Shown here: piece by piece, positions 1,448-15,861 of the stretch
How positions within the stretch are numbered: position 1 is the stretch's first letter
Layout of the letters: every line of letters begins with the position of its first letter
DNA from: Thraustochytrium sp. TN22
Taxonomy: Eukaryota; Sar; Bigyra; Thraustochytrida; Thraustochytriidae
DNA: 64,000 nucleotides
Assembly: GCA_013306675.1 (NCBI GenBank)
Contig: JABLUY010000047.1
Span: 1 to 64,000, forward strand
Direction of reading: 5' to 3'
Notes under the pieces: generated by a model
Told to the model about the DNA's origin: nothing
Seen by the model: the letters and a program-made list of their open reading frames with translations, nothing else
The model's database searches: none
Translations under genes and position numbers: made by a program

Positions 1448-2568
1448 GTCTCTTGCTAGAGCGAAGACGTTGCCGGCTCAACTTGCTTGAACTTCAAGTT
1501 GCCAGCCTCCAGGCTCCTTGCCAATGCGGTGCAGTCACTGCAGTGGTGCAAGTCGTCGGCAACCCGCGTTCTCCCGCTCCAAGGAGGAAAAGCCGCGATC
1601 AGCCTGATGCCTGTCGTCGCCGTATGATACCGTAACAGCGCAAAGTTACCACAAACAAAGAACAAAGTCAGTAAAAGCCGCGTGTCAGCCGCGTGCCGGG
1701 CCACGCGCAGTGCGACGCAGTGCGACGGCACACGCCCGGCTCGGGCCTTCACCTTTGAGATCAACGTGACTCGGTGACTCGGAGCCTGCAGCACTGCAAG
1801 TTCCCCGCGGCCCGCGACCGGGCGCCACCGTCAATGCCGTCCGACCGTCCGCCGCCACAACCGGGGCCTTCTCGATGGTCAAGCGCAAACGTCGCAGACA
1901 GAGATCCAAGTTGGTCGCTTCGCGAGCCGAGCCCGGCCGAGTCTCAGGCTCGGCAGGCTGCGAGCCAACTCGACGAGACGTGACGAGCGCCCCCAACGAC
2001 TGGCTGCAAGCCTTGCCAGGCCAAGGCCGCAAGGCGACGCAAGGGAACGCAACGCGCGACGGCCGCTCTCCAACCAACCAACACGATCACCGCTGACGGC
2101 CGCAGCGAGCAGCCCGGCCCGGCGTTCGAGAAGGCCGTGGTTGTGGCGGCAGCGAACCGTGACTCAGACGGCGAGCACTCCAAGTTGCACAAGTCTTGCA
2201 GAGCAGCCTCACTGCAACTCGAACCTCAAGATGGACTCGAACCGTGGCGAATGCCAGTGGGAGCGTGTGCCGCCAGTGCCGCCGCGCGTGGCGTGCGTGG
2301 CGCCTAACGTTGGCGCGGCCGCCGGTGTTCCTCCGGCCAAATCCTTGGTTCGTCACGTCCAGCGCTCGAGAAGGCGCGGTTGCGCGAGAGCGGCGGCAGG
2401 CACCAGACCTCAAACGGAGCGGGCAGCGGAGCTGGGCGGCCTGCGCGGCGGCGGGCGGGCGGGCGGGCGGGCCGGCGGCGGCGGCGGCGGCGGGCGGCGC
2501 AACGCGTCGACGAGCGGCGCTGCTGGGCAGCTGCGGTGGCGACGGGCGGCGACGGCAGTTCGAAGAAC
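1448..2568. other. Intergenic, upstream of the TIR gene
   Basis: No supportable gene. Open frames are short or shadow each other. The last 200 bp (about 2,370-2,568) are GC-rich with GGGC runs. The frame of the next gene is open back to 2,380 without protein-like features, so this part is probably promoter and 5' leader. Confidence 0.5.
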
Positions 2569-5016
2569 ATGGCGGCACGGGACGAGGATCTCGGCGGCGT
2601 CTCGCAGAGGCCTGACGACGCGAACTCGGTCGGGTCGAGCCAGAGCCATGGCGAGGGCGATAATGACAGCCCGGAACAGGCGCCGTGTTCGCAGCGCTCG
2701 TTCGAGTCCACGTTCGATTACTCGCTCCAGTCGACGATCCCCATGTCGCAGGGGGGGGGTTTCGACGAAGAATTTAGTGACAAGGCGCAGGCGCAATCCA
2801 AGATGCTGGACGAGAGCGCGGCGGCAGCGCCAGCGGCACCTTCTACCACTTCCGAACGCGTGCACACCGAGACTCTGGTGCGGCTCTTCGCGCAGTGGTG
2901 CTCCGATCTCGTCTCCGCCGGCCGCTGGCTGTACAGTGTGCGCGTGCAGGTCGTCACTGCGAATGGCGAAGGCGATGCCGCCGCTCAAACCTCGGGTGCT
3001 GAACTCTCGCCCACTATCAGCATCCACCATGGCGCCAAGCTCACAGTCGTCCTGGAGCACGTAGACCAAGGGGCGGCGGCAGGCCGCGAGGACACGCCTG
3101 TGCCTAATGGCTCGCTGGGCTCGGACGCGCTTAGCGTCGGGCAGGACACTACCACGGACACCATGTACTTTGTCAGCTGCGATACCGACCTAGATGTGAG
3201 TCTTGAACTCGAGCATGCCAACCCGCACCTCCGCGCACGATTCTTCGTGGACGACGTCGAGCGCATGCTCCTGCCCATCAACGAAGGCAGCGGCCTTCAA
3301 GAGGGAAGCAGCGCCCGGATGGCCTCCGGGGGTAGCGGCGATGGCGGCGGCGGCGATGACGATGACGATGGCGATGACGATGGCGATGACGATGGCGATG
3401 ACATTGGCGATGGTAATGACGGCGACGGCAACGACAAGGCGGCGCGGGACAGCGCGGACGACCCATCCAAGAAGAAGCGCAAGAAGGGAGATGAGCCTCA
3501 GGACGAGGCAGCGCCAGCGGAAGCGAACGCGCCTCACACGCGAGGCCGTCTACGCCGCCAGGCCAGCCTGCTTGCCGAGAAGCGCATGAGAAGCGCCGCT
3601 GCGGCCGAGCGACGCGCCAAGTGCGGTGCACCGGCTGGCCCCGATCCGCCCCAGCCCCAGGACGCCGATCCGTCCCGGGTAGCCTCCCCGCCGCGCGCAG
3701 GGAAGCGAAGCTCGCCGCGAAGGACGCGCATGCAACGGGAAGCCTCGCCACAGCCGCGGATCAACGGCAACGAGTGCACCACCGTGGCGGCGCTGGCGCC
3801 CGCGCCCGTGACCCGACCATCTCGAGCAAGAGGCCCGGCCGTGCCTGCGCAGCCCCCGCCCAAGACGCGCCGAGTCTCCGAAGACGCGCAGGCGGCGGCC
3901 GCCGCGGCGACCCCGGTGCTGCCGCCGGCTGACGCGCAAAAGCTGCAGATCTCCGTCTTCGGGCCCAGGAGCATGGCAGATTTGTGGGACGACACACCGG
4001 ACGACATCGGCAATCGCAGCAACGGTAGCCTCGATAGCCTCTGCAGTCAGGGTGGCTCCTGTCAGGTGACGGTCTGGCTGCACTCACCGGAGGCAGCGGC
4101 CGGTCTTGCAAGTGACGAGCTGGAGAAATCGAATCGACACCTGATCGAGTCCAAGGTCGGCATTCGTGTGCTTCGGCCGAGCAATCCAATCCTGGTGAGC
4201 GCGCATTTCATCAGTCGCAGCGACGGGCTTGAGGCCGATAGCGAGCGATGCCTTGAGCAACAATGGTGGGGTGACGCCACGAACTTCCCCTTCTCCCTAC
4301 AGTGTGACCTGTCAAAGACTAGGGCTCCTCGGTTCGATGTACATGTCCACGTCGCGACGCAGCCCGCGGTGTACGTGCCAGTTCGCTTATTCTGCCGCTC
4401 CGCTTTCAAGATGCCTCTTCGTCAGCCTCACCTCATGCCGCCTCTTCCCCGGCGAGCGCATCTCATGCCGCCGCTTGCGCATGGCTTCGATCACCACATC
4501 TTCTTCAGCTACCGGCGCACGAAGGTGGGGATCCCCAAGCTCTTGTCCGCCGAGCTCAATCGCCAGTATGGCTACACGTCCTTCATCGACACGAGGAGTC
4601 TGCGGGCTGGCGTGGAGTACCAGAAGACGCTCGAGGAAAGCCTCCAAGCTGCCACCTTCGTTGTGGCGATCTTTACCGCGGCACCGTCCGCCCGTGACGG
4701 CTACCGCAAGCACCTTTCCTCGCTTGGGAGCATCAAGGAGTGGGTGCGCTCGCACGCGCGTGGAGGCACAACCACGGACTGGTGCTACCGCGAGCTCCAG
4801 CTCGCCTTCAACCTCGGCAAGGTGGTGATTCCCATTTACGCTGGCGTGGAGCGCGAAGAAGAGAACAAAGATCTACCAGACGACATCGCATGGCTTGCAT
4901 CTCGTCAATGCATTGAATCGTCCTCTGAATATGATGATGATGACAAGTTCGTCAAGGAAATCCACGAGACCATCCAGTACAACCTCCAGAGAAAACAAGT
5001 CTGCCCCGGGCCGTGA
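2569..5016 (+). CDS. TIR-domain protein with acidic, NLS-bearing N-terminal region
   Basis: 815 residues from the ATG at 2,569; the open frame extends further upstream but is Arg/Gly-rich. The C-terminal part (about 640-815) is a TIR domain. It has a first strand HHIFFSYRR (D641 to R649), then a FIDTRSL strand, a strand ending in VVAIFT, the W738-C739-x2-E742 motif, and an IPIY strand. In TIR NADases (SARM1, plant TIRs) the catalytic glutamate sits in an equivalent W-C-x2-E segment, so E742 is the candidate catalytic residue; NAD+ cleavage is inferred. The N-terminal half is low complexity with a DDDDGDD tract encoded at about 3,350-3,425 and a basic KKKRKK cluster (residues 301-306) that could be a nuclear localisation signal. 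Two beta-rich segments (about 90-240 and 460-620) have no family I recognise. It is convergent with the carrier gene, with 137 bp between the stops. Confidence 0.8.
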   Translation: MAARDEDLGGVSQRPDDANSVGSSQSHGEGDNDSPEQAPCSQRSFESTFDYSLQSTIPMSQGGGFDEEFSDKAQAQSKMLDESAAAAPAAPSTTSERVHTETLVRLFAQWCSDLVSAGRWLYSVRVQVVTANGEGDAAAQTSGAELSPTISIHHGAKLTVVLEHVDQGAAAGREDTPVPNGSLGSDALSVGQDTTTDTMYFVSCDTDLDVSLELEHANPHLRARFFVDDVERMLLPINEGSGLQEGSSARMASGGSGDGGGGDDDDDGDDDGDDDGDDIGDGNDGDGNDKAARDSADDPSKKKRKKGDEPQDEAAPAEANAPHTRGRLRRQASLLAEKRMRSAAAAERRAKCGAPAGPDPPQPQDADPSRVASPPRAGKRSSPRRTRMQREASPQPRINGNECTTVAALAPAPVTRPSRARGPAVPAQPPPKTRRVSEDAQAAAAAATPVLPPADAQKLQISVFGPRSMADLWDDTPDDIGNRSNGSLDSLCSQGGSCQVTVWLHSPEAAAGLASDELEKSNRHLIESKVGIRVLRPSNPILVSAHFISRSDGLEADSERCLEQQWWGDATNFPFSLQCDLSKTRAPRFDVHVHVATQPAVYVPVRLFCRSAFKMPLRQPHLMPPLPRRAHLMPPLAHGFDHHIFFSYRRTKVGIPKLLSAELNRQYGYTSFIDTRSLRAGVEYQKTLEESLQAATFVVAIFTAAPSARDGYRKHLSSLGSIKEWVRSHARGGTTTDWCYRELQLAFNLGKVVIPIYAGVEREEENKDLPDDIAWLASRQCIESSSEYDDDDKFVKEIHETIQYNLQRKQVCPGP

Positions 5017-6068: not shown

Positions 6069-6844
6069 CCTGCTCGCGCTGCGCGCCGCCGCGTGGCCGC
6101 GTGCGACCGAGTCCGCCGGTTCTGGTTCTGCCGGCGCCGCCAACAGACAATGTAGTTTGTCACAACTGCACGAGCCGCCGCCGCACGTCCCGCACGCCCG
6201 CGACTCGGAGGCGCTGCCAGGCCAGTGCAGTGGGCCCGATCCGGGGCTCTTGGAGTCGCCGCGAGGGATCTTCAACAACGTTGAACTTGACGCGACCCAG
6301 CTACGGCGCGAACTTACTTCCTGCAAGACTCGACAATGATTGACAGTGGATGACGATGTAATGTCACCGGCCGCGGGCCCGAGGCGCCGCGGGCCCCGGG
6401 GCTCTCGTTGCGAGCCTTACGCCGGCGCGAACTTCAAAGCCCGCAAACTCGACAACGATTGAGCGTGAATAATCAAAGGCAGGTCAAGACGATGCCGCCG
6501 CCGCCCGTGCCGCACGCCCGCGAGGCGCGCGGGCCCGAGGCGGGGCTCTCGTCGCGAGGGATGGGCTCGGGCCAAGCAGCCTAACGCGAGGCCGCCGCTG
6601 ACGCACGCAGCTCCGGCGCGAACTTCTTAGGTTGTTGAAGCCCGCAAAAGTCGAAGCCCTAGGCCGAGCCAAGCGGCGGTCACGGCGGCCGCGCGGCGGC
6701 GGCGGCGGCGGCACTGCAGGCGGCGGCCGGGCAGCGCAAGGCGCGGGTTGCGGCGTGCAGGTCGCGGCGGCGTGCAGGCAGGGCAGGGCAGGGCAGGGCA
6801 GGGCAGGGCAGGGCAGGGCAGGGCAGGGCCCGGGCCGGGCCGGC
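6069..6844. other. Divergent intergenic region between carrier and Misato genes
   Basis: About 780 bp between two divergent starts, so probably a shared promoter region. It has short near-repeats (CCCGCAAA-type segments near 6,437 and 6,642) and ends in a GGGCA pentanucleotide repeat. No open frame with protein-like content was found. Confidence 0.5.
6781..6830. repeat. GGGCA pentanucleotide repeat
   Basis: Nine exact GGGCA units plus a tenth ending GGGCC, finishing 14 bp before the Misato ATG. On the sense strand this would be a purine-rich 5' leader element or promoter-proximal repeat; no function is evident. Confidence 0.9.
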
Positions 6845-8827
6845 ATGGCGGCGCTCGCCGGCGCGAGCGACTGGTCGACGGGCGGCGGCGGCGGCGAGGT
6901 GCTGACGCTGCAGCTGGGGCGCGCGAGCAACTTCGCCGGCGCGCACTTCTGGAATGCGCAGGACGAGCTGCTGGAGCTGGACCGCGACGAGCGGTCGGGC
7001 GCTGCGGGGCACGAGCGCGCCGACCAGGCAGGCTGGGTCGAGGCCGTCGCGGACGCGGCCGGCGGCGGCCGCGCCGCAGCGCAGGACGGCCGCGAACTGA
7101 GGCCGGAGCTTCTCTTCCGCGTGAGCGAGCACGCTGCCACGCCGCGCCTCGTGGCCGTCGACTTCCGGCGCGGCGTCGGCGCGCTCAAGCCGCTGCAGGC
7201 GCTCGTCAGCGGCGCGCCCAAGGATCTCTTCGAGCTCAGCGACGAGGACCTCGCTGGCCAGACGCAGGCCGTCTGGGACGGCCCCGTGCAGGTGAGTCGC
7301 GAGCGGCCTCTGGCACAGAACGCCTTTCTCGATTGGCTTGAGCAGGGCGCCTCGGCAGTCCAGGGCGTCGCGCTCGGCGCCGGCGGCGGGGGCGGCGCCA
7401 AGGACCCCTTTCAGCACCAGCACCAGCACCAGCACTATCAGCAAGCGCATAGCGAGCAGCTCGAGGACGGCGACGACCAGGAGGAGCAGGACCTCTACGA
7501 GGCGCGCCGCGTGCGGGACGAGGACGTCAAGTCCTGGGGCGACTTCTTCAAGTCCAACGTGCACGAGCGCAGCGTCTGCCTGCTGCACCGCTACGGAGAG
7601 TCCGACTTCGACACCTTCAATGCCGGCCACGAGGCAGCGCTTCAGGGCAACCAGCTTGACCATGTGCTCGAGTCCGTGCGCTTTTACCTCGAGGAGTGCG
7701 ACCGCCTCCAGGGCGTGCACGCGCTCGTCGACATCAACACCGGCTTCGGCTCCATCGCACAGACCATTTTGCAGGAGATCCGCGAGGAGGCCCGCAGTGC
7801 CGCCATCTGGTGCCTCGGCGTCGTGGAGCCCACGCCAACGCGCGCCTCGCCCGAGGCGCACATTACTGCGATGCGCAAGCGCGCCACCAACGAGGCCATC
7901 GCGCTGGCCACCTTCTCGCGCCTCTGCCACCTTTACACGCCCGTACCGCTCTACGCACTGCAGGAGGACCCAGCGCGCCTCGCCGCGCTTCCTTACCTTG
8001 CCAAGGACCGTTTCGACGCCTCGTCGCTTTTCCACACCACGTCTCTGGTCGGCGCAGCCGTCGACGCCGCGTCCACGCCCTACCGCCTAGCTCGCCCGGC
8101 GCACGGCGTGCATGCGGCGGCGACGCTGGCCGAGGTATGCGCCCGCGCAGGGCCCTCCGAGGACACGCGCATCGCGGGCCTGCACGTCTCGCTGCCCTTT
8201 CCGCACCCGGATATCTCCCCCACGGACCTCGGCGAGCTCCTCTCGCACGCGGATCCCCTGCACGAGCGCAAGCCTGTCGTGGGGCTCGACCTCTCCGCGG
8301 CGCTCCCGTACACGAAGCCGACCAGGACGCCCTCGCCCGCGGTCAAGGTGCACGGCGCCAGCCTCGTGCTGCGGGGCAACCGGCCGGCACGCACCGACGC
8401 CATCGCGCGCCGCGACCTCGAGACAGCACTCGGCGCCTACCTGGACCGCACGCGACTCTCGCTCACGCCCGCGCCGCTCATCTGCTGCGCCGCGACGCCG
8501 AGCCCCATCACGCTCGCGCACCCTGACATCTTCCGCAACCAGGTGCTTGGCGTCCACGGCGAGATTGCGGTGGGCCGCAAGACCCCGCCGGTCTCCATGC
8601 CGGCACTCGTGAGCCTCGCCTCCTCCACGCGCTCCGCCGCCAATATCCTTCACGCGCAGGACGCCCTGCGCGCCCCAAGCCTCGCCACCCGCATGCAGTA
8701 CGCGAGGGGCCCCGCCGGTCTCGGCCAGGACGAGTGGACCGTCCTGCGCGAGGACGTGGCGCACAACATTGCCCCAGCGTACGGCCTCGAAGACCCGGGC
8801 TCTGACGATGCTGACTTGGACAGTTGA
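6845..8827 (+). CDS. Misato/DML1 family tubulin-like protein
   Basis: 660 residues. The N-terminus has EVLTLQLGRASNFAGAHFWN, matching the Misato opening strand and the W-N-x-Q-D segment (residues about 18-40). A second hallmark block begins FNAGHEAALQ and continues into RFYLEECDRLQG and a DINTGFGS segment, the degenerate tubulin-type nucleotide-binding region of the family. Misato (MSTO1) and yeast Dml1 are linked to mitochondrial distribution, fusion and mtDNA inheritance. A QHQHQHQH stretch (CAGCAC repeat near 7,413-7,440) interrupts the conserved blocks. The frame extends upstream through the GGGCA repeat, but the ATG at 6,845 sits directly before the conserved N-terminus. Confidence 0.88.
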   Translation: MAALAGASDWSTGGGGGEVLTLQLGRASNFAGAHFWNAQDELLELDRDERSGAAGHERADQAGWVEAVADAAGGGRAAAQDGRELRPELLFRVSEHAATPRLVAVDFRRGVGALKPLQALVSGAPKDLFELSDEDLAGQTQAVWDGPVQVSRERPLAQNAFLDWLEQGASAVQGVALGAGGGGGAKDPFQHQHQHQHYQQAHSEQLEDGDDQEEQDLYEARRVRDEDVKSWGDFFKSNVHERSVCLLHRYGESDFDTFNAGHEAALQGNQLDHVLESVRFYLEECDRLQGVHALVDINTGFGSIAQTILQEIREEARSAAIWCLGVVEPTPTRASPEAHITAMRKRATNEAIALATFSRLCHLYTPVPLYALQEDPARLAALPYLAKDRFDASSLFHTTSLVGAAVDAASTPYRLARPAHGVHAAATLAEVCARAGPSEDTRIAGLHVSLPFPHPDISPTDLGELLSHADPLHERKPVVGLDLSAALPYTKPTRTPSPAVKVHGASLVLRGNRPARTDAIARRDLETALGAYLDRTRLSLTPAPLICCAATPSPITLAHPDIFRNQVLGVHGEIAVGRKTPPVSMPALVSLASSTRSAANILHAQDALRAPSLATRMQYARGPAGLGQDEWTVLREDVAHNIAPAYGLEDPGSDDADLDS

Positions 8828-9624
8828 TTCTGTGCGCATATCGACCGACCCCAGCTCCGGATTCGCCTGCAATGCAGACGAAGACCGTGCAGCGCCCGTG
8901 TGCTTGCTCAAAAGGCCATGCAGCGCTCGTGCCCTGTGCCGTGCGGTGCTCATGCCGACGACATTTTCCACCAATTCCGCGCAACGCTTGTGCGTACGAC
9001 CGCCAATGCCGCGCCACGATCTCGCGCGCTAGCCTTTCTTGCCACAACCACCACTGCAAGATCTCCACGTCTCACTCCTGTCACTAAAGTCTATGTCCGT
9101 GCGCACGTTCTTTTGTCCGCGAGTCGCCCATGCGAGGCGATACGAGCTGCGCCTGCCTGGCCCCGCGCGGCGCCCTTTTTCCGAGTCCCGCGCCGCGCCC
9201 ACCTCGTCCCAGTCCCGGCTGCCCCGTGCTCGCGCTCCCTTGAGATCCCTCGCAGCTGGCCCCCACCCCGCATTCTGCGTGCGTCGGCGAGCGTCTCCAG
9301 CGTGCTGGCTTGCCCTGCCTCCGCGCGACGCCCCCGACGCCCGAGTTGGCCTGCGCCAGCTCGACGGCCAGGTCCAGGTCCAGGTCCAGGTCCGGGTTCG
9401 CGCCCTCGTCTACGAAGCGCCCCAAGCCGCAAGAAGCGGCCCAACCACGCGGCGCAGCCGCGGCCTGAGCGCTCCAGAGCAGAGCTGCGCGCGGGCGCGG
9501 GGCGGCGCGGCGCGGCGCGGCTGTGCGGCGCGGCGCGGCGCGGGCGGGGCGCGGCGGCGCGGCTGTGCGGCGCGGCGCGGCGGTGCGGCGCGGCTGTGCG
9601 GCGCGGCGGCGCGGCGGCGCAGCC
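8828..9624. other. Intergenic, upstream of galectin-RRM gene
   Basis: No supportable gene. From about 9,490 to 9,620 the sequence is a tandem-like run of GCGGCGCGGC units ending at the next ATG. A short CAGGTC repeat (about 9,370-9,393) is also present. Confidence 0.5.
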
Positions 9625-11586
9625 ATGACGACGATCCGCATCAAGCTGCCCAAGGGCGGCGCGGCCGCGGCGGCGAACGTGGACGTGGACATCAGCAGCA
9701 GCAGCGAGGACGAGTCGGACGCCGACTCGGTGTCGCGGCGGTCGCTGGAGGAGGAACCTACGGACAAGCGCGACGCGCAGGACGCGGACTACGCGCCGCG
9801 GCAGACGGCAGGAACCGCCGCGGCGAGGAGAGGCGCCGTGGCGGCAGGCGCAGGAGGCGGGGCGAAAGCAAGAGGACGCGGCACACGCAGACCCGGCGCG
9901 GCGGGCGGGGGCGATGACGACGATGACGACGACGACGACGACGACGACGACTCGCTGGACAAGTACATGACGGCCAAGCCTGCGCCCAAAGTGGCTGCGC
10001 CCAAAGCGGCTGCGCCCAAACTCGCGATCGCGACCTCGCCGGCAGTGGCGCCCGCGGCCGCACCAGCAGCGCCGGCCGCGCCGCTCAAGGACCCTTTCGA
10101 GCACCTCTCGCTCCCGGACCGGTACAGGCCGCTCATGCACGAGCTGACGGAGCAGGAACGCCGTTTGCTGGACAAGTTCGTGCACACCAAGAAGCTTGTG
10201 CTCAAGCAGTCGGCCCGCGCGGAGCAAGTCATGGCGGCGCGGCGCGCACGCGAACTGGAGGAGCGCAAGCGGCGGGGCGGCCTCTTCAGCGACCGGGTCG
10301 CTCCCGTGAAGCGGCCGCGCGTCAACACCATTCAGGACAACTCGCCCGTCTCGCCGCCGGCGCACGCGGGTGGCAGCGGGCCAATCCCCGCGGTGGGTGC
10401 CTCCTCGACATCTTCGTCCTCGTCTTTGGCCGCGCCCCTGGCGCCTCCGCGTGTGCAGGCGCCGCCGCCGGCCATCTCGCCGCGATTGGGCCACCAACTG
10501 GACCAGGGCAAGTCGATCAGCATGCTAAGCTCGAGCTACGACGACACCGGGGTGCTCATGCTCTCCGATTGGCGGTCCACAGAGAGCAAGGAACCGCTGG
10601 TGATCGAGCTTCCAAACCTCCTGCATGAGCCGACCTGGCCCGCGGGCAGCGCCGCGCCGGCACAGACCGGCAATACCGTGGTCGTGTGGGGCACTTTCCC
10701 GGACGCTTCGGAGCGCTTCTGCATCAACTTGGCACCGTCCACCTCATACAAGGAGAGCGACTCAAACACGATCTTCCTCTACCACTTCAACCCGCGCGAC
10801 GGCTGGGGCAAGAAACAAATCCAGCAGAACGCCTTCGTTGACGGCAAATGGGGGCGCTCGGACCAGGCGGTGCAAGGCATGCCCATTACCAAGGGAAAGC
10901 GCTTCGAGCTTCGCATCACCGTCACACCGAAGGAGTTCCTCATCTTCCTCGATGGCAAGCTCTTCGATACCTTTCGCAACCGCGCCGACCCGCGCTACTT
11001 GCAGGCCGGCCGCACCCTTTACCTGATCGTACCGCTGGTCGAGGACCACTACGGCGACAAGGAGGACATCAAGGTGCACGGCGTCTGGTGGGGCTACCGC
11101 GCGCCGCGCGTTCGCAGCCCGTCCACTGGTAGCAAGTCGTTCTCGCCCGCGCACCGATTCGGTGGCCCGCACGGTGGGGGGGCGCACGGCGGGGGGCCGC
11201 ACGGCGGCCGGGGCGGCTTCCATGGCGGCGGCCCGCCCGGGGGGTCCGGTGGGCCCGGCGGCCCGCCCGGTCACCGCCGCCCGCGCGGCGCTCCGCAATT
11301 TGAGGAACGAGTGGTTTTCGTCGCAGGGCTGCCCAAGGACACGCCGACAGCGTATCACGAGCTGATCCGCATCTTTGAGCCCTTTGGCCTCGACAAGGAT
11401 CATCACACCGGCAAGCCGCGCATCCGCGTCATTGAGGGCAAAGACTTCGCCTTCGTGACGCTTCGAGACGAGACCAGCATGGCGGAAGCCATCCGAAGTC
11501 TCGACGGCAAGCCGGGCATGCCCGGCCACACGCTCTCCGTGACACGCGCGCGCAAGAGGCAGTCGTTTCACGGCGGGGACCGCTGA
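9625..11586 (+). CDS. Galectin domain fused to an RNA-recognition motif
   Basis: 653 residues. The N-terminal 300 residues are disordered: an acidic/serine SSSSEDES stretch, a run of 13 or so Asp, and Ala/Pro-rich linkers. A galectin-type carbohydrate-recognition domain follows at about 320-500. It has a VVVWGTF strand, the sugar-binding signature H387-F388-N389-P390-R391, an N and W409-G410 pair (NAFVDGKWG), and a FLIFLDGKLFDTF strand. After a Gly/His-rich linker (about 512-555) comes an RRM at about 560-645, with RNP2-like VVFVAGLP (V563-P570) and RNP1-like KDFAFVTL, ending in LSVTRAR. The combination suggests a nuclear or ribonucleoprotein-associated lectin. Sugar and RNA targets cannot be read from sequence. 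The usual Glu after W-G (WG-x-E) appears as R-S-D here, so sugar affinity may be altered. Confidence 0.85.
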   Translation: MTTIRIKLPKGGAAAAANVDVDISSSSEDESDADSVSRRSLEEEPTDKRDAQDADYAPRQTAGTAAARRGAVAAGAGGGAKARGRGTRRPGAAGGGDDDDDDDDDDDDDSLDKYMTAKPAPKVAAPKAAAPKLAIATSPAVAPAAAPAAPAAPLKDPFEHLSLPDRYRPLMHELTEQERRLLDKFVHTKKLVLKQSARAEQVMAARRARELEERKRRGGLFSDRVAPVKRPRVNTIQDNSPVSPPAHAGGSGPIPAVGASSTSSSSSLAAPLAPPRVQAPPPAISPRLGHQLDQGKSISMLSSSYDDTGVLMLSDWRSTESKEPLVIELPNLLHEPTWPAGSAAPAQTGNTVVVWGTFPDASERFCINLAPSTSYKESDSNTIFLYHFNPRDGWGKKQIQQNAFVDGKWGRSDQAVQGMPITKGKRFELRITVTPKEFLIFLDGKLFDTFRNRADPRYLQAGRTLYLIVPLVEDHYGDKEDIKVHGVWWGYRAPRVRSPSTGSKSFSPAHRFGGPHGGGAHGGGPHGGRGGFHGGGPPGGSGGPGGPPGHRRPRGAPQFEERVVFVAGLPKDTPTAYHELIRIFEPFGLDKDHHTGKPRIRVIEGKDFAFVTLRDETSMAEAIRSLDGKPGMPGHTLSVTRARKRQSFHGGDR

Positions 11587-11716: not shown

Positions 11717-12865
11717 TTACTTCTTCTTCTTCTTCTTGGCAAGCTCCGCTTCGTCAAAGGCAGTCTGGCGCTCGTAGGCGCGATCTCGACCCTCGGCAAT
11801 CTCTCGCGCGCGGTCCTCTTGTGCTTGCATGAACTTGCGCATGCGCTCCTCCTGCCGAGCCTGGGCGCGTGCGTCTGCAGCGCGCTCCTCCTCGAGGCGG
11901 GTCTGCTCGCGCTTCTCCTCGATCTCCACGGCTTGTCGGTGCTGACGCGCGGCGAAGAGCTTGCCGCGGCGCTCGAGCGCGTTCTCGCGATATAGCGCCT
12001 TGTTCTCCTCCAGCTTGGCGAGGATGGCGTCCATGTCGGCCGGCGCCGGTGTGCCGTTGAAGTCAAGGTCAAGGGAGCGCAGCGTTCGGTTCTTGCGGAT
12101 CGCACGACTCAGGAGCGCCGAGCCCTGCAGGCCGAGGCTGCAGCGCGCCAAGTTGAGGCATTCGAGGGCGTCGTTCTGCAAGAGCGCGTCCGCGAGCGCC
12201 GCAACGCCGCTCAAGTCGTGGCCGTCGTCCGTCAGGTTGTTGTCCTCCAGCGAGAGCGTCAGCAGACGGCTGTTGCCGGCGAGTCCCTCAGCGAGGGCAG
12301 CCAATCCGGCGGGCCCAATCCCCGAGCGACGCAGTTCGAGGCGTTGCATGCTGGTCGTGCCAGCGTTGCCCAGGGCGGCGCCCAGGGCGCGTGCGCCCTC
12401 GTCGCCCACGTTCCCGTTCGAGAGGTCCAGAGCAATGAGCGAGGTGCAACCCGGCAAGGCGCGCGCCACAACACGCGCCAGCGAGGCCGTCCCGGCGGCG
12501 AAGGTCACCTCTGAGGATGTGCGGTTCTCCACGGCTAGGTCCAGAAAGAGCCGCAGCGCGCCATGCGACGCAATCAGCTGCGCGTCCTCGCGTTCATGCG
12601 CCAGTCTGCGCTGTTCCTCGCGCAGACGATCCTGCTCCTCGATAATGCGCTGCGCGCGCTCGCGCTGCGCCGTCTCGTACGCAGTGAGGTTCTGCTCGAA
12701 CTCGTCGTCGTAAACCTCCTGCAGGGCGCGTTCGTCCTCAGCGGGAATGCCCATCACCTGCAGGCCGCGCGCCTGCAGCTCGTTGCGCACGTCCTCGCGC
12801 GACATGCCCTTGCACGTGCGCCGCCGCGGCTCCTCCAGCGCCATACTGCCATCGTCCGCGTCCAT
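11717..12865 (-). CDS. Leucine-rich-repeat (RNI-like) protein with flanking coiled coils
   Basis: 382 residues from MDADDG. Residues about 45-100 and 290-375 are charged coiled-coil segments (Glu/Arg/Gln-rich). Between them lie about six ribonuclease-inhibitor-type leucine-rich repeats, for example SLIALDLSNGNVGDEG, LLTLSLEDNNLTDDG and LRSLDLDFNG. The protein ends in six lysines from a TTC repeat on the + strand. This arrangement is common in cytoskeletal and ciliary scaffold proteins, but I cannot assign a specific family. A second in-frame ATG lies 7 codons later. It is convergent with the galectin-RRM gene, with 130 bp between stops. Confidence 0.7.
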   Translation of the reverse strand: MDADDGSMALEEPRRRTCKGMSREDVRNELQARGLQVMGIPAEDERALQEVYDDEFEQNLTAYETAQRERAQRIIEEQDRLREEQRRLAHEREDAQLIASHGALRLFLDLAVENRTSSEVTFAAGTASLARVVARALPGCTSLIALDLSNGNVGDEGARALGAALGNAGTTSMQRLELRRSGIGPAGLAALAEGLAGNSRLLTLSLEDNNLTDDGHDLSGVAALADALLQNDALECLNLARCSLGLQGSALLSRAIRKNRTLRSLDLDFNGTPAPADMDAILAKLEENKALYRENALERRGKLFAARQHRQAVEIEEKREQTRLEEERAADARAQARQEERMRKFMQAQEDRAREIAEGRDRAYERQTAFDEAELAKKKKKK

Positions 12866-13215
12866 CCGCTTCGCTCTTGCTCTGCCCCGCCGTGCCCAGC
12901 CCGGGTCCTCCTCGTCCGCACGTCCCCCCGCCTGCCTCGGGTCGTCCGAGCTCTCCGCGACCAGACTGACGCCAGCCGCGCTCGGCAGACCCCGACGGCA
13001 CGTGCACGTACCCGCGCGCGCGCCGCGCGCGCTCTCTCTTCTCTTCTTGATGCAGCTGCAGTGCGCGCGAAAGAAAGCGGCGCATCTTGTCACCCCAAAC
13101 CGGCCATCGTAACGGAATTCAAGTTGAAGATGAATCGTGCTGACCACGAGGCAGCAAAAACTCCCCGTCACACTGACCACGAGAGACCTGCCAGTGGGGT
13201 AACCAGAGCGCGTTT
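12866..13215. other. Intergenic between LRR gene and MSH4
   Basis: 350 bp between two minus-strand genes: the 3' flank of MSH4 and the promoter side of the LRR gene. The LRR frame stays open through most of it but without conserved content. No other feature seen. Confidence 0.5.
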
Positions 13216-15861
13216 TCAGATTGTTACAGACGCGGCGGACTCGGGCGCGGCGCACTCCGAGTCGGTGGTCTGGCCCAGCTTGGCCAGGGCGGCGCGAAGC
13301 TCGGCGAGCGTCATCATGTGGGCGTCGCGGAGCAGAACGGCAAGGCCGGCGCGTCGCGCAGCGTGCGTCTGGCGCGCCTCAAGCAGGTCAGCGCGCGCAG
13401 CCCGCGCGTCCTCGAGCGCGGCGCGCGGAAACCCGCATGCCTCGGCGAGACGCAGCCCGTAATCCTCAGGTCCGCGCAACGTCGAGGTAAGGCCGCCCGG
13501 ACCCCCTTGCGCGCCGTCCTTGCCTCCTTCGCCGCCGTCGCCGCCGTCGTCATCCACCTCCTGCCGCACAGCGTGGCTGAGGACAAGCGCTTGTGTCACC
13601 TCATCCACGGTGACGGCAAAACTGAGAACCTGGACGCCGCGCAGCGCCTCGAGCTGGCGAAAGTGCGTTGCGAAGAGCGTGAGCGTGCGTGGGCGCTGCA
13701 GGAGGAATTCGGCGGCCGCCCACGCGAGCGCAAGGCCCTCGCGAGAGCTCGTGCCACGGCCCAACTCGTCGATGAGCACGAGCTGGTGCTGGCCGGAAGC
13801 GGCGGTCGGCGGCGGCGAACGTGTAATGTGGGCGAGCTCCGTCATCTCCAGACTAAAGGTCGATGCGTTGGCCTCCAGGTTGTCTTCGGTCCCGATGCGT
13901 GTCAGCAAGCGACGCACGAGTGGGACGCGCGCCGCAGCGGCTGGGACCCATGCGCCTGCATGCGCGAGGATGACGATGATTGCAGTCTGTTTGAGCAGCG
14001 TCGACTTGCCCGCAGAGTTCGGCCCGGTGACAATCCCCATCGACCGCAGCGAGAGGTCATTCGACACAAAGACGCTCTTGGTGCTCTCAGCCCCGTCCAC
14101 GGACGACACGACGCTGGCCCCGTCTTCCGCCGCCGCGATGGCAGCGACGCGAGCTGCACGCAGCTCCTGCTGCTGCAGCGAGGAAACCACGAGAGGATGT
14201 CGGCCCTGCACGATATGCAAGGGCGTATTGGACTGTGACCCGACGCTGGTGGTGGTGCTGGTGGTGGTGCTGCTGCCGGCGCCAGCGCCACTGGCGCGGC
14301 TGCTTTCCTCGTCATCATGGCGACCACCGTCGTCATTGACATCGTCCATGTCGACCTCGCCGCCGCCGCCAACATGGGGCCGCACGACCTCGGCCTCGGA
14401 CGCTTGCTGCGCAAACCCCTGCAGCACGTCCAGCAGCGCCACGGCCTCGGCGATGGCGTAGAGCGCCGGCAGAGCCGCTCGAACCTTGCCGCGCAAGTCC
14501 TCGAGGTGCATTTCGGTGCGGCGCAGCGCTTCGCGCGTCGCCTGCTCCTGCTTCAGGTTCAGGCTTGCCAGCGCCTCGGTCGTGCAGTCGACCGTCTTCT
14601 TGTGCACGGCCGTCTGGATGAGCAGCGCACCGACGCGCGCCGGCGTTGCGCTCTGGCGTGGCACGCGTAGGTGGTAGCCGCGCTTGACCGAGTACCACAG
14701 GCAGGCGTCCAGGTCGGCGTGCTCCTCGTTGAGACTGGACACGTACTGTTTCATGGCAGAAACCTTCTCGGCATACGCCTGGCGCGCAACGTCCAGCACG
14801 CCGTCAAGACCGGGGCGTACGCAGAAGATGGCCTCGACGCGTTGCTCCTCAGGGCTGCGGTGGAAGCTCACATCGGCGTGCAGGCGCTGGGCAACCTCCT
14901 CCTGCAGCGCCTCCAGCTGCGCATGGGCGCCGCTCACCGTGGCGACCAGGGCACGGCCAAGGCGCGAGCGCAGGCGGCCCTTCAGCGCGTTTTCCAGCGC
15001 AGCGAGCGCGCGCACGGCCTCCAGCAGCCGGATCGTGTTGTCCGCCTCGCGCTTCAGCGTCACGAGGGTGAACTGCTTGGGCCGCGCCGCGTAGTGCGAG
15101 GTGAGCTGGTCCAGGTCGTGCAGGCCACGGAGGTGATCCTGCGCCGTCGACCGGAGCGCGTCGGCCTGCGCGAGCTCGTGCACGAGGTCCTGCCGGGCGC
15201 GGACCACGTCACGCTCGCAGGGTGGTGCCACCAGCTCTGCGCGCAGGCGGCGCGCGCCGGGCGCCGTCACCGTAAAGTCCATGAGCTGCACGACGCTCGC
15301 GCCTCGTGCCTGGCGCGTGGGGTCCAGCACGCCGCGCCGGTCCTCGAGGAGCTCCAACTGCGCCACGGTGACGGCGTCCAGCGTCATTCGCGAGGCGTCG
15401 TCGTCGTCGTCGATGCGCACGCGCAGCGAGCCCACGGCGAAGCGCGCGTCCTGAGTGAGCTCCACAAAGCCCAGCAGCGCCGCCGCGGCGCCCCTGCACA
15501 GGTAGCGGCGGTCCAGCTCGCGCAGGTCCAGCTCCACGGCACTCAGCTTGCGCACACGCTCCAGGCCGGCATCCTCGGAGAAGACGCGCCGCGGTCGCGT
15601 CTCCACGCGCCAGCGCAGGCCCTTTTCGCCGACGAGCGCTGCGTACAGCGCGCCCTGCGTGTGCGTGGACGGGAAGACGACCACGCTCGCCCCGCACGAC
15701 GTCAACGCCGCTACCGTCGCCTCGTGAAGCTTGCCGTCCCGCAGTTGGCTCAGGTGCAGCTCGGGCTTGCTCAGGTCCAGCCACGCCAGCCCGACCTCCG
15801 CGTTCTTGTTGCCAATCGCCGCGGCCACCACCGACCCGGCGCTCGCGCTTGCATTTGTCAT
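13216..15861 (-). CDS. MSH4: MutS homologue MSH4 (meiotic)
   Basis: 881 residues. The N-terminus has AEVGLAWLDLSKPELHLSQ, matching the start of MSH4. The mismatch-recognition domain I of MSH2/3/6 is absent, as in MSH4. Connector, lever and clamp regions span about 100-560, with an acidic/Ser-Thr insertion at about 510-560. The ATPase domain has Walker A TGPNSAGKST (K619), the TRIGTEDNLEANASTF segment typical of MSH4, Walker B LVLIDELGRGTSS (D698, E699) and the LFATHF motif. MSH4 pairs with MSH5 to stabilise crossover intermediates in meiosis I. In other MutS proteins Walker A usually reads GPNMGGKST or GPNMSGKST; here it is GPNSAGKST. A Gly/Asp-rich insertion (about 760-785) lies near the C-terminus. 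The start is an ATG directly before the conserved block. Confidence 0.87.
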   Translation of the reverse strand: MTNASASAGSVVAAAIGNKNAEVGLAWLDLSKPELHLSQLRDGKLHEATVAALTSCGASVVVFPSTHTQGALYAALVGEKGLRWRVETRPRRVFSEDAGLERVRKLSAVELDLRELDRRYLCRGAAAALLGFVELTQDARFAVGSLRVRIDDDDDASRMTLDAVTVAQLELLEDRRGVLDPTRQARGASVVQLMDFTVTAPGARRLRAELVAPPCERDVVRARQDLVHELAQADALRSTAQDHLRGLHDLDQLTSHYAARPKQFTLVTLKREADNTIRLLEAVRALAALENALKGRLRSRLGRALVATVSGAHAQLEALQEEVAQRLHADVSFHRSPEEQRVEAIFCVRPGLDGVLDVARQAYAEKVSAMKQYVSSLNEEHADLDACLWYSVKRGYHLRVPRQSATPARVGALLIQTAVHKKTVDCTTEALASLNLKQEQATREALRRTEMHLEDLRGKVRAALPALYAIAEAVALLDVLQGFAQQASEAEVVRPHVGGGGEVDMDDVNDDGGRHDDEESSRASGAGAGSSTTTSTTTSVGSQSNTPLHIVQGRHPLVVSSLQQQELRAARVAAIAAAEDGASVVSSVDGAESTKSVFVSNDLSLRSMGIVTGPNSAGKSTLLKQTAIIVILAHAGAWVPAAAARVPLVRRLLTRIGTEDNLEANASTFSLEMTELAHITRSPPPTAASGQHQLVLIDELGRGTSSREGLALAWAAAEFLLQRPRTLTLFATHFRQLEALRGVQVLSFAVTVDEVTQALVLSHAVRQEVDDDGGDGGEGGKDGAQGGPGGLTSTLRGPEDYGLRLAEACGFPRAALEDARAARADLLEARQTHAARRAGLAVLLRDAHMMTLAELRAALAKLGQTTDSECAAPESAASVTI

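Follow-up and report, generated by a model that had tools for sequence, protein, structure and literature searches.

An open reading frame joining a galectin domain to an RNA-recognition motif in a thraustochytrid

A single open reading frame of Thraustochytrium sp. TN22 encodes a galectin domain and, further along the same chain, an RNA-recognition motif (RRM), an arrangement that we rate as a novel pairing of known domains. The frame lies within a 64,000-nucleotide stretch of contig JABLUY010000047.1 (hereafter the window), where it runs for 653 codons without interruption on the plus strand, from an ATG at 9625 to a TGA at 11584-11586, and on the basis of the open frame and its codon choice we take it (9625..11586) to be a single-exon gene. 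The fusion is very probably a real protein. The most economical reading, the RRM being on the galectin's own chain, is that this protein serves as a nucleocytoplasmic RNA-binding adaptor, and we put the probability of that mechanism as a whole at roughly 45%. The original prediction had placed both domains on one chain and proposed a domain search and structure prediction as checks. The shared chain is borne out by Pfam matches in one frame and by a structural model with the RRM order, and the motif positions were confirmed (HFNPR at residues 387-391, KWGR at 408-411, VVFVAGLP at 563-570 and KDFAFVTL at 606-613).

The galectin domain is the stronger of the two Pfam matches. When the whole protein is searched, Gal-bind_lectin (PF00337) matches residues 345-458 (10657-10998, plus strand) with 64.8 bits and an E-value of 6.8e-18, against a curated cut-off of 22.1. 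A search of the PDB matched 156 sequences at E ≤ 1, starting from E 1.7e-14; the best 60 of these 156 are all named galectins except one putative fiber protein, two of them being listed under an earlier name, 'lectin, galactose binding, soluble 9', and their best stretches fall inside residues 328-459. The top solved match is entry 4hl0, 'galectin', with galectin-8 lower in the list. From these Pfam and PDB matches the domain as a whole probably extends over residues 320-492 (10582..11100, plus strand). Structure prediction was less informative for this part of the chain: the AlphaFold2 model of residues 303-500, made from the single sequence, reached a pLDDT of only 40.9, so that the case for the galectin fold is made by sequence comparison.

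The RRM shows the converse pattern, with a marginal profile score and a confident model. It occupies residues 561-645 (11305..11559, plus strand) and contains an RNP2-like VVFVAGL and an RNP1-like KDFAFVTL, labelled according to the RNP1 and RNP2 consensus; the RNP1 aromatics F608 and F610 are both present. Searched with the whole protein, RRM_1 (PF00076) matches residues 564-629 with 20.4 bits (E 4.7e-4), falling 0.3 bits short of the 20.7 cut-off, whereas residues 556-653 alone (98 residues) give 26.9 bits (E 4.5e-6) and pass it. The proposed domain search thus confirmed the galectin domain outright and the RRM on the fragment but not on the whole protein. The AlphaFold2 model of residues 552-653, again from sequence alone, has a mean pLDDT of 82.3 and a pTM of 0.73, and its elements follow the order E-H-E-E-H-E-E, the RRM order plus a short additional strand; of the two pieces proposed for structure prediction, therefore, the RRM gave a clear answer and the galectin piece did not. 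A short basic end after the RRM closes the protein.

The N-terminal region is of low complexity: residues 1-150 are acidic and rich in Ala and Gly, with an Asp run encoded by a triplet array at 9912..9951 (plus strand), as expected from the acidic N-terminus originally described. A charged, probably helical stretch follows at residues 165-222 (10117..10290, plus strand), and includes a cluster of basic residues (RKRR at 214); searches of Pfam and the PDB with this stretch yielded nothing significant (best E 0.12 and 0.21, respectively). The two domains are joined by a linker at residues 493-560 (11101..11304, plus strand) which contains a 15-base repeat and whose composition (Gly 24/68, His 6/68, Pro 12/68) agrees with the Gly/His-rich character first attributed to it. 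The highest hydropathy over 19 residues is 1.19 in the whole protein, and the first 45 windows of that size peak at 0.46; by hydropathy, therefore, neither a membrane segment nor a signal segment is evident.

Whether these parts belong to one protein is a question that the open frame itself does little to settle. Long open frames are frequent on both strands of the GC-rich DNA of the window, including an antisense frame of 468 codons over 9091-10497 that overlaps the galectin-RRM frame, and because they are so common openness alone is little proof. The evidence for the gene is instead the two domain matches together with codon choice. Using a codon-choice table built from five long open reading frames of the window, which themselves score 0.17 to 0.55, synonymous codon choice over the whole frame is 0.443 in frame versus -0.05 and -0.30 in the other forward frames; within the two domains the in-frame values are 0.53 and 0.40, and both other forward frames are negative there. 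An artefact of annotation or assembly, in which two genes or a hidden intron in the Gly-rich linker have been read as one frame, would find room in the linker, a low-complexity, repeat-bearing segment where the codon test does not choose a frame (0.374 in frame versus 0.432 in +1), as expected because of its repeated GGN codons, and in the general abundance of open frames. We nevertheless consider this explanation the least credible of all: the galectin domain and the RRM lie in a common frame, which codon choice favours in both, and the translation has no Met between residues 419 and 619, so that the RRM could not start alone from an in-frame ATG. The window also contains no N, and other frames in it run free of stops for 1300 and 4921 codons, which fits intron-poor genes.

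The frame stands between an upstream gene for a Misato-like protein with tubulin-like domains (6632-8827, plus strand; PF10644, PF14881) and a downstream gene for a leucine-rich-repeat protein (11717-13255, minus strand; PF13516). Further upstream, the C-terminal part of a frame at 2380-5016 (plus strand) resembles a TIR-type domain by eye. A GCGCGG-rich tandem repeat at 9487-9620 immediately precedes the galectin-RRM start codon and may affect the 5' end of the transcript. An Rfam scan of the window gave no matches, and a sigma-70 and terminator scan behind the gene found nothing, a result that is not meaningful for a eukaryote.

What the galectin domain might bind was approached by aligning it with five reference galectin domains, four taken from the PDB matches and the fifth being galectin-1. 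The sugar-contact residues of galectin-1 are H44, N46, R48, N61, W68, E71 and R73. Five of these seven positions are kept, as H387, N389, R391, N402 and W409: HFNPR (10783..10797, plus strand) retains the H, N and R that contact galactose, and the Trp is retained in W409-G-R-S412-D-Q414 (10849..10866, plus strand). The changed positions are E71 (S412), R73 (Q414) and V59 (Q400). The Glu at the E71 position is present in all five references, which vary elsewhere, R73 being Ile in the first domain of galectin-8 and N46 being Ser in one other domain. In galectins E71 and R73 touch the second sugar, and the loss of their equivalents suggests altered or weaker glycan binding; with Ser and Gln at these positions, classic beta-galactoside binding is therefore not assured. 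The predicted sugar site is accordingly only partly canonical, and the sugar-binding signature originally noted holds for H387, N389, R391 and W409, whereas the changes at the E71 and R73 positions weaken a plain sugar-binding reading.

These substitutions could also be taken to mean that the galectin domain is a degenerate structural module that binds no sugar, and that the protein is an ordinary Gly-rich, hnRNP-like RRM protein. The changes at the positions of E71, R73 and V59 point this way, and proteins that pair a Gly-rich stretch with a single RRM are common. The retention of five galactose-contact residues, however, would be unexpected for a long-dead site, and we regard such degeneracy as possible but rather unlikely.

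The same five residues (H387, N389, R391, N402, W409) favour the opposite view, in which the galectin domain reads sugars on nucleocytoplasmic proteins and links those proteins to RNA, the candidates being, for instance, a beta-Gal-containing hydroxyproline glycan of the Skp1 type or the sugars of O-GlcNAc/O-Fuc proteins. Two glycosyltransferase families tied to nucleocytoplasmic glycosylation have matches in the genome: PF13844, the OGT/SPY family (7 matched stretches), and PF11397, a family linked to Skp1 (8 matched stretches, spread over 6 contigs), although the Skp1 pathway is putative here. Two bacteria among the 14 control genomes also match PF13844, and its presence alone is therefore no proof of O-GlcNAc or O-Fuc. 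According to a review, nucleocytoplasmic Skp1 bears a beta-Gal-containing glycan in numerous protists (PMC8724618), and this, with the matches to the two families, makes an intracellular sugar ligand for the galectin domain possible by analogy. Another source points both ways: it reports that the link of galectin-3 with U1 snRNP is lactose-sensitive, but also that O-GlcNAc alone does not bind galectin-3 and that the spliceosome contacts of galectin-1 do not implicate sugar binding (PMC11239732). Given in addition the changed E71 and R73 positions, we hold a dedicated reader of intracellular glycans to be unlikely.

A more specific alternative is suggested by the order of a charged N-terminal stretch followed by an RRM, which this protein has in common with NELF-E, the subunit that carries the RRM in NELF, a pausing factor of Pol II. 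On this account the protein would stand in for NELF-E, with a galectin domain inserted between the N-terminus that binds NELF-B and the RRM. NELF-B holds the N-terminus of NELF-E and thereby tethers the RRM, as has been reported (PMC4940160), and the genome encodes NELF-A_N, NELF-B and NELF-C/D. The stretch LTEQERRLLDKF..KK resembles LSEEEEALQKKF..KK of human NELF-E, and among 352 stretches taken from the translations of 11 other open reading frames of the window only 5 reached the N-terminal score against NELF-E; 83 of 1000 shuffles, however, reached it too. For the RRM alignment with human NELF-E, 1 of 1000 shuffles scored as high, and kinship between RRMs would be enough to explain this. 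At E ≤ 10 human NELF-E has 6 matches in the genome; all lie over its RRM part, and the galectin-RRM protein is not one of them. NELF-E is likewise absent from the 27 PDB matches of our RRM at E ≤ 10. The N-terminus of NELF-E alone gave no match in the genome, an empty answer that shows nothing since the search had no positive control. The protein also stops shortly past its RRM, whereas the tail of human NELF-E is longer. With the shuffle test, the genome search and the PDB matches all unsupportive, NELF-E was rejected as the main reading, and a NELF-E counterpart seems to us highly improbable. A wider idea, which we think improbable, is that a galectin with its own RNA-binding domain reads an intracellular glycan or a transcription or RNP partner in a probably unicellular eukaryote; its boldest form would make the protein the RRM subunit of a NELF complex with a bromodomain-bearing NELF-B, and would tie pausing to glycan and acetyl-lysine signals.

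The NELF genes all lie outside the window. The NELF-B (COBRA1) gene (L018:1789-5394:-, contig C453) has a bromodomain in the same 1201-codon frame, with COBRA1 at residues 304-462 (E 3.7e-25) and the bromodomain at 552-635 (E 2.9e-17), the best solved relative of the latter being TAF1 (E 1.6e-17). Such a protein would join a pausing factor to an acetyl-lysine reader and merits separate attention; the fusion is not the subject of any literature match listed, judged by title or abstract opening. The NELF-C/D gene (L020:1572-4268:-, 898 codons) matches TH1 (E 1.8e-46) and has an N-terminus that looks WW-like by eye but gave no Pfam match at E 0.01, and the gene with the NELF-A N-terminal domain (L019:1411-2589:-, 392 codons) matches at E 2.2e-8.

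We therefore return to the adaptor as the preferred reading. The C-terminal RRM would grip single-stranded RNA through its beta-sheet, while the galectin domain, beside the flexible Gly/His-rich linker, would hold another molecule: the surface of a protein, as has been reported for galectins in the nucleus, or a sugar chain carried by a protein inside the cell. Further contacts may come from the acidic tail and the basic helical stretch. RNA binding, partner binding and a nuclear or cytosolic location are what we infer. The roles first suggested, a lectin-linked RNA-processing factor or a glycan-RNA binder, are candidates, as is a part in splicing. The adaptor is favoured because both domains lie in one frame with in-frame codon choice, because the RRM model is confident, because there is no Met for a separate RRM protein and no strongly hydrophobic segment, and because families PF13844 and PF11397 are present in the genome. 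It is weakened by the 0.3 bits that the RRM lacks on the whole protein, by the galectin model with its pLDDT of 41, and by the changed E71 and R73 positions. It is further favoured because intracellular galectins with RNP partners have been described (PMC11239732, PMC5338267): galectins 1 and 3 participate in splicing (PMC11239732), and galectin-3 is reported to act on one mRNA through its partner hnRNP-L (PMC5338267). The original prediction had stated that both of these galectins function in splicing without an RNA-binding domain of their own; the splicing role stands for both, and these sources support the absence of an RRM for galectin-3 (PMC5338267, PMC11239732).

A six-frame search of the 37.9-Mb assembly with PF00337 found one galectin place, which is this gene, and the protein searched against its own genome recovered itself along with 5 weaker matches (E 1.0e-4 to 9.0e-4). 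Of these, four lie over parts of residues 62-174, which are acidic or Ala-rich, and one over 435-548, spanning the end of the galectin domain and the linker; we take all five to reflect composition. Scans for relatives gave 600 pattern matches in viral contigs and 591 in prokaryotic genome contigs, with none confirmed in either, which says little as these collections are not eukaryotic. Among the literature matches listed, which mostly leave subscription papers outside, no title or abstract opening names the fusion. The protein could be conserved within a single group. The nuclear roles of animal galectins have so far been hard to interpret, and a natural chain with both domains offers a simple way to ask whether the two kinds of binding cooperate in cells, what ligand a galectin has there and if it can act on RNA directly.

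Comparison with known systems places the protein between several families. With hnRNP-like Gly-rich RRM proteins it has in common a Gly-rich stretch and one RRM, but here a galectin domain is added. It resembles NELF-E, other subunits of whose complex are encoded in the genome, in its charged N-terminal stretch and C-terminal RRM, and differs in having a galectin domain, no significant N-terminal match and no long tail past the RRM. With galectins (PF00337) it shares the domain itself, the HxNxR...N...W part of the sugar site and the lack of a strongly hydrophobic segment, whereas here the domain sits inside a 653-residue protein with an RRM and carries Ser and Gln at the E71 and R73 positions. 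A parallel in layout may be drawn with galectin-3, the chimera type, in which a Gly/Pro-rich flexible tail adjoins the galectin domain much as the linker does here. Galectin-3 has been reported in RNP complexes (PMC11239732) and is described as having no RRM (PMC5338267, PMC11239732), whereas in the thraustochytrid protein an RRM lies on the same chain, past the linker.
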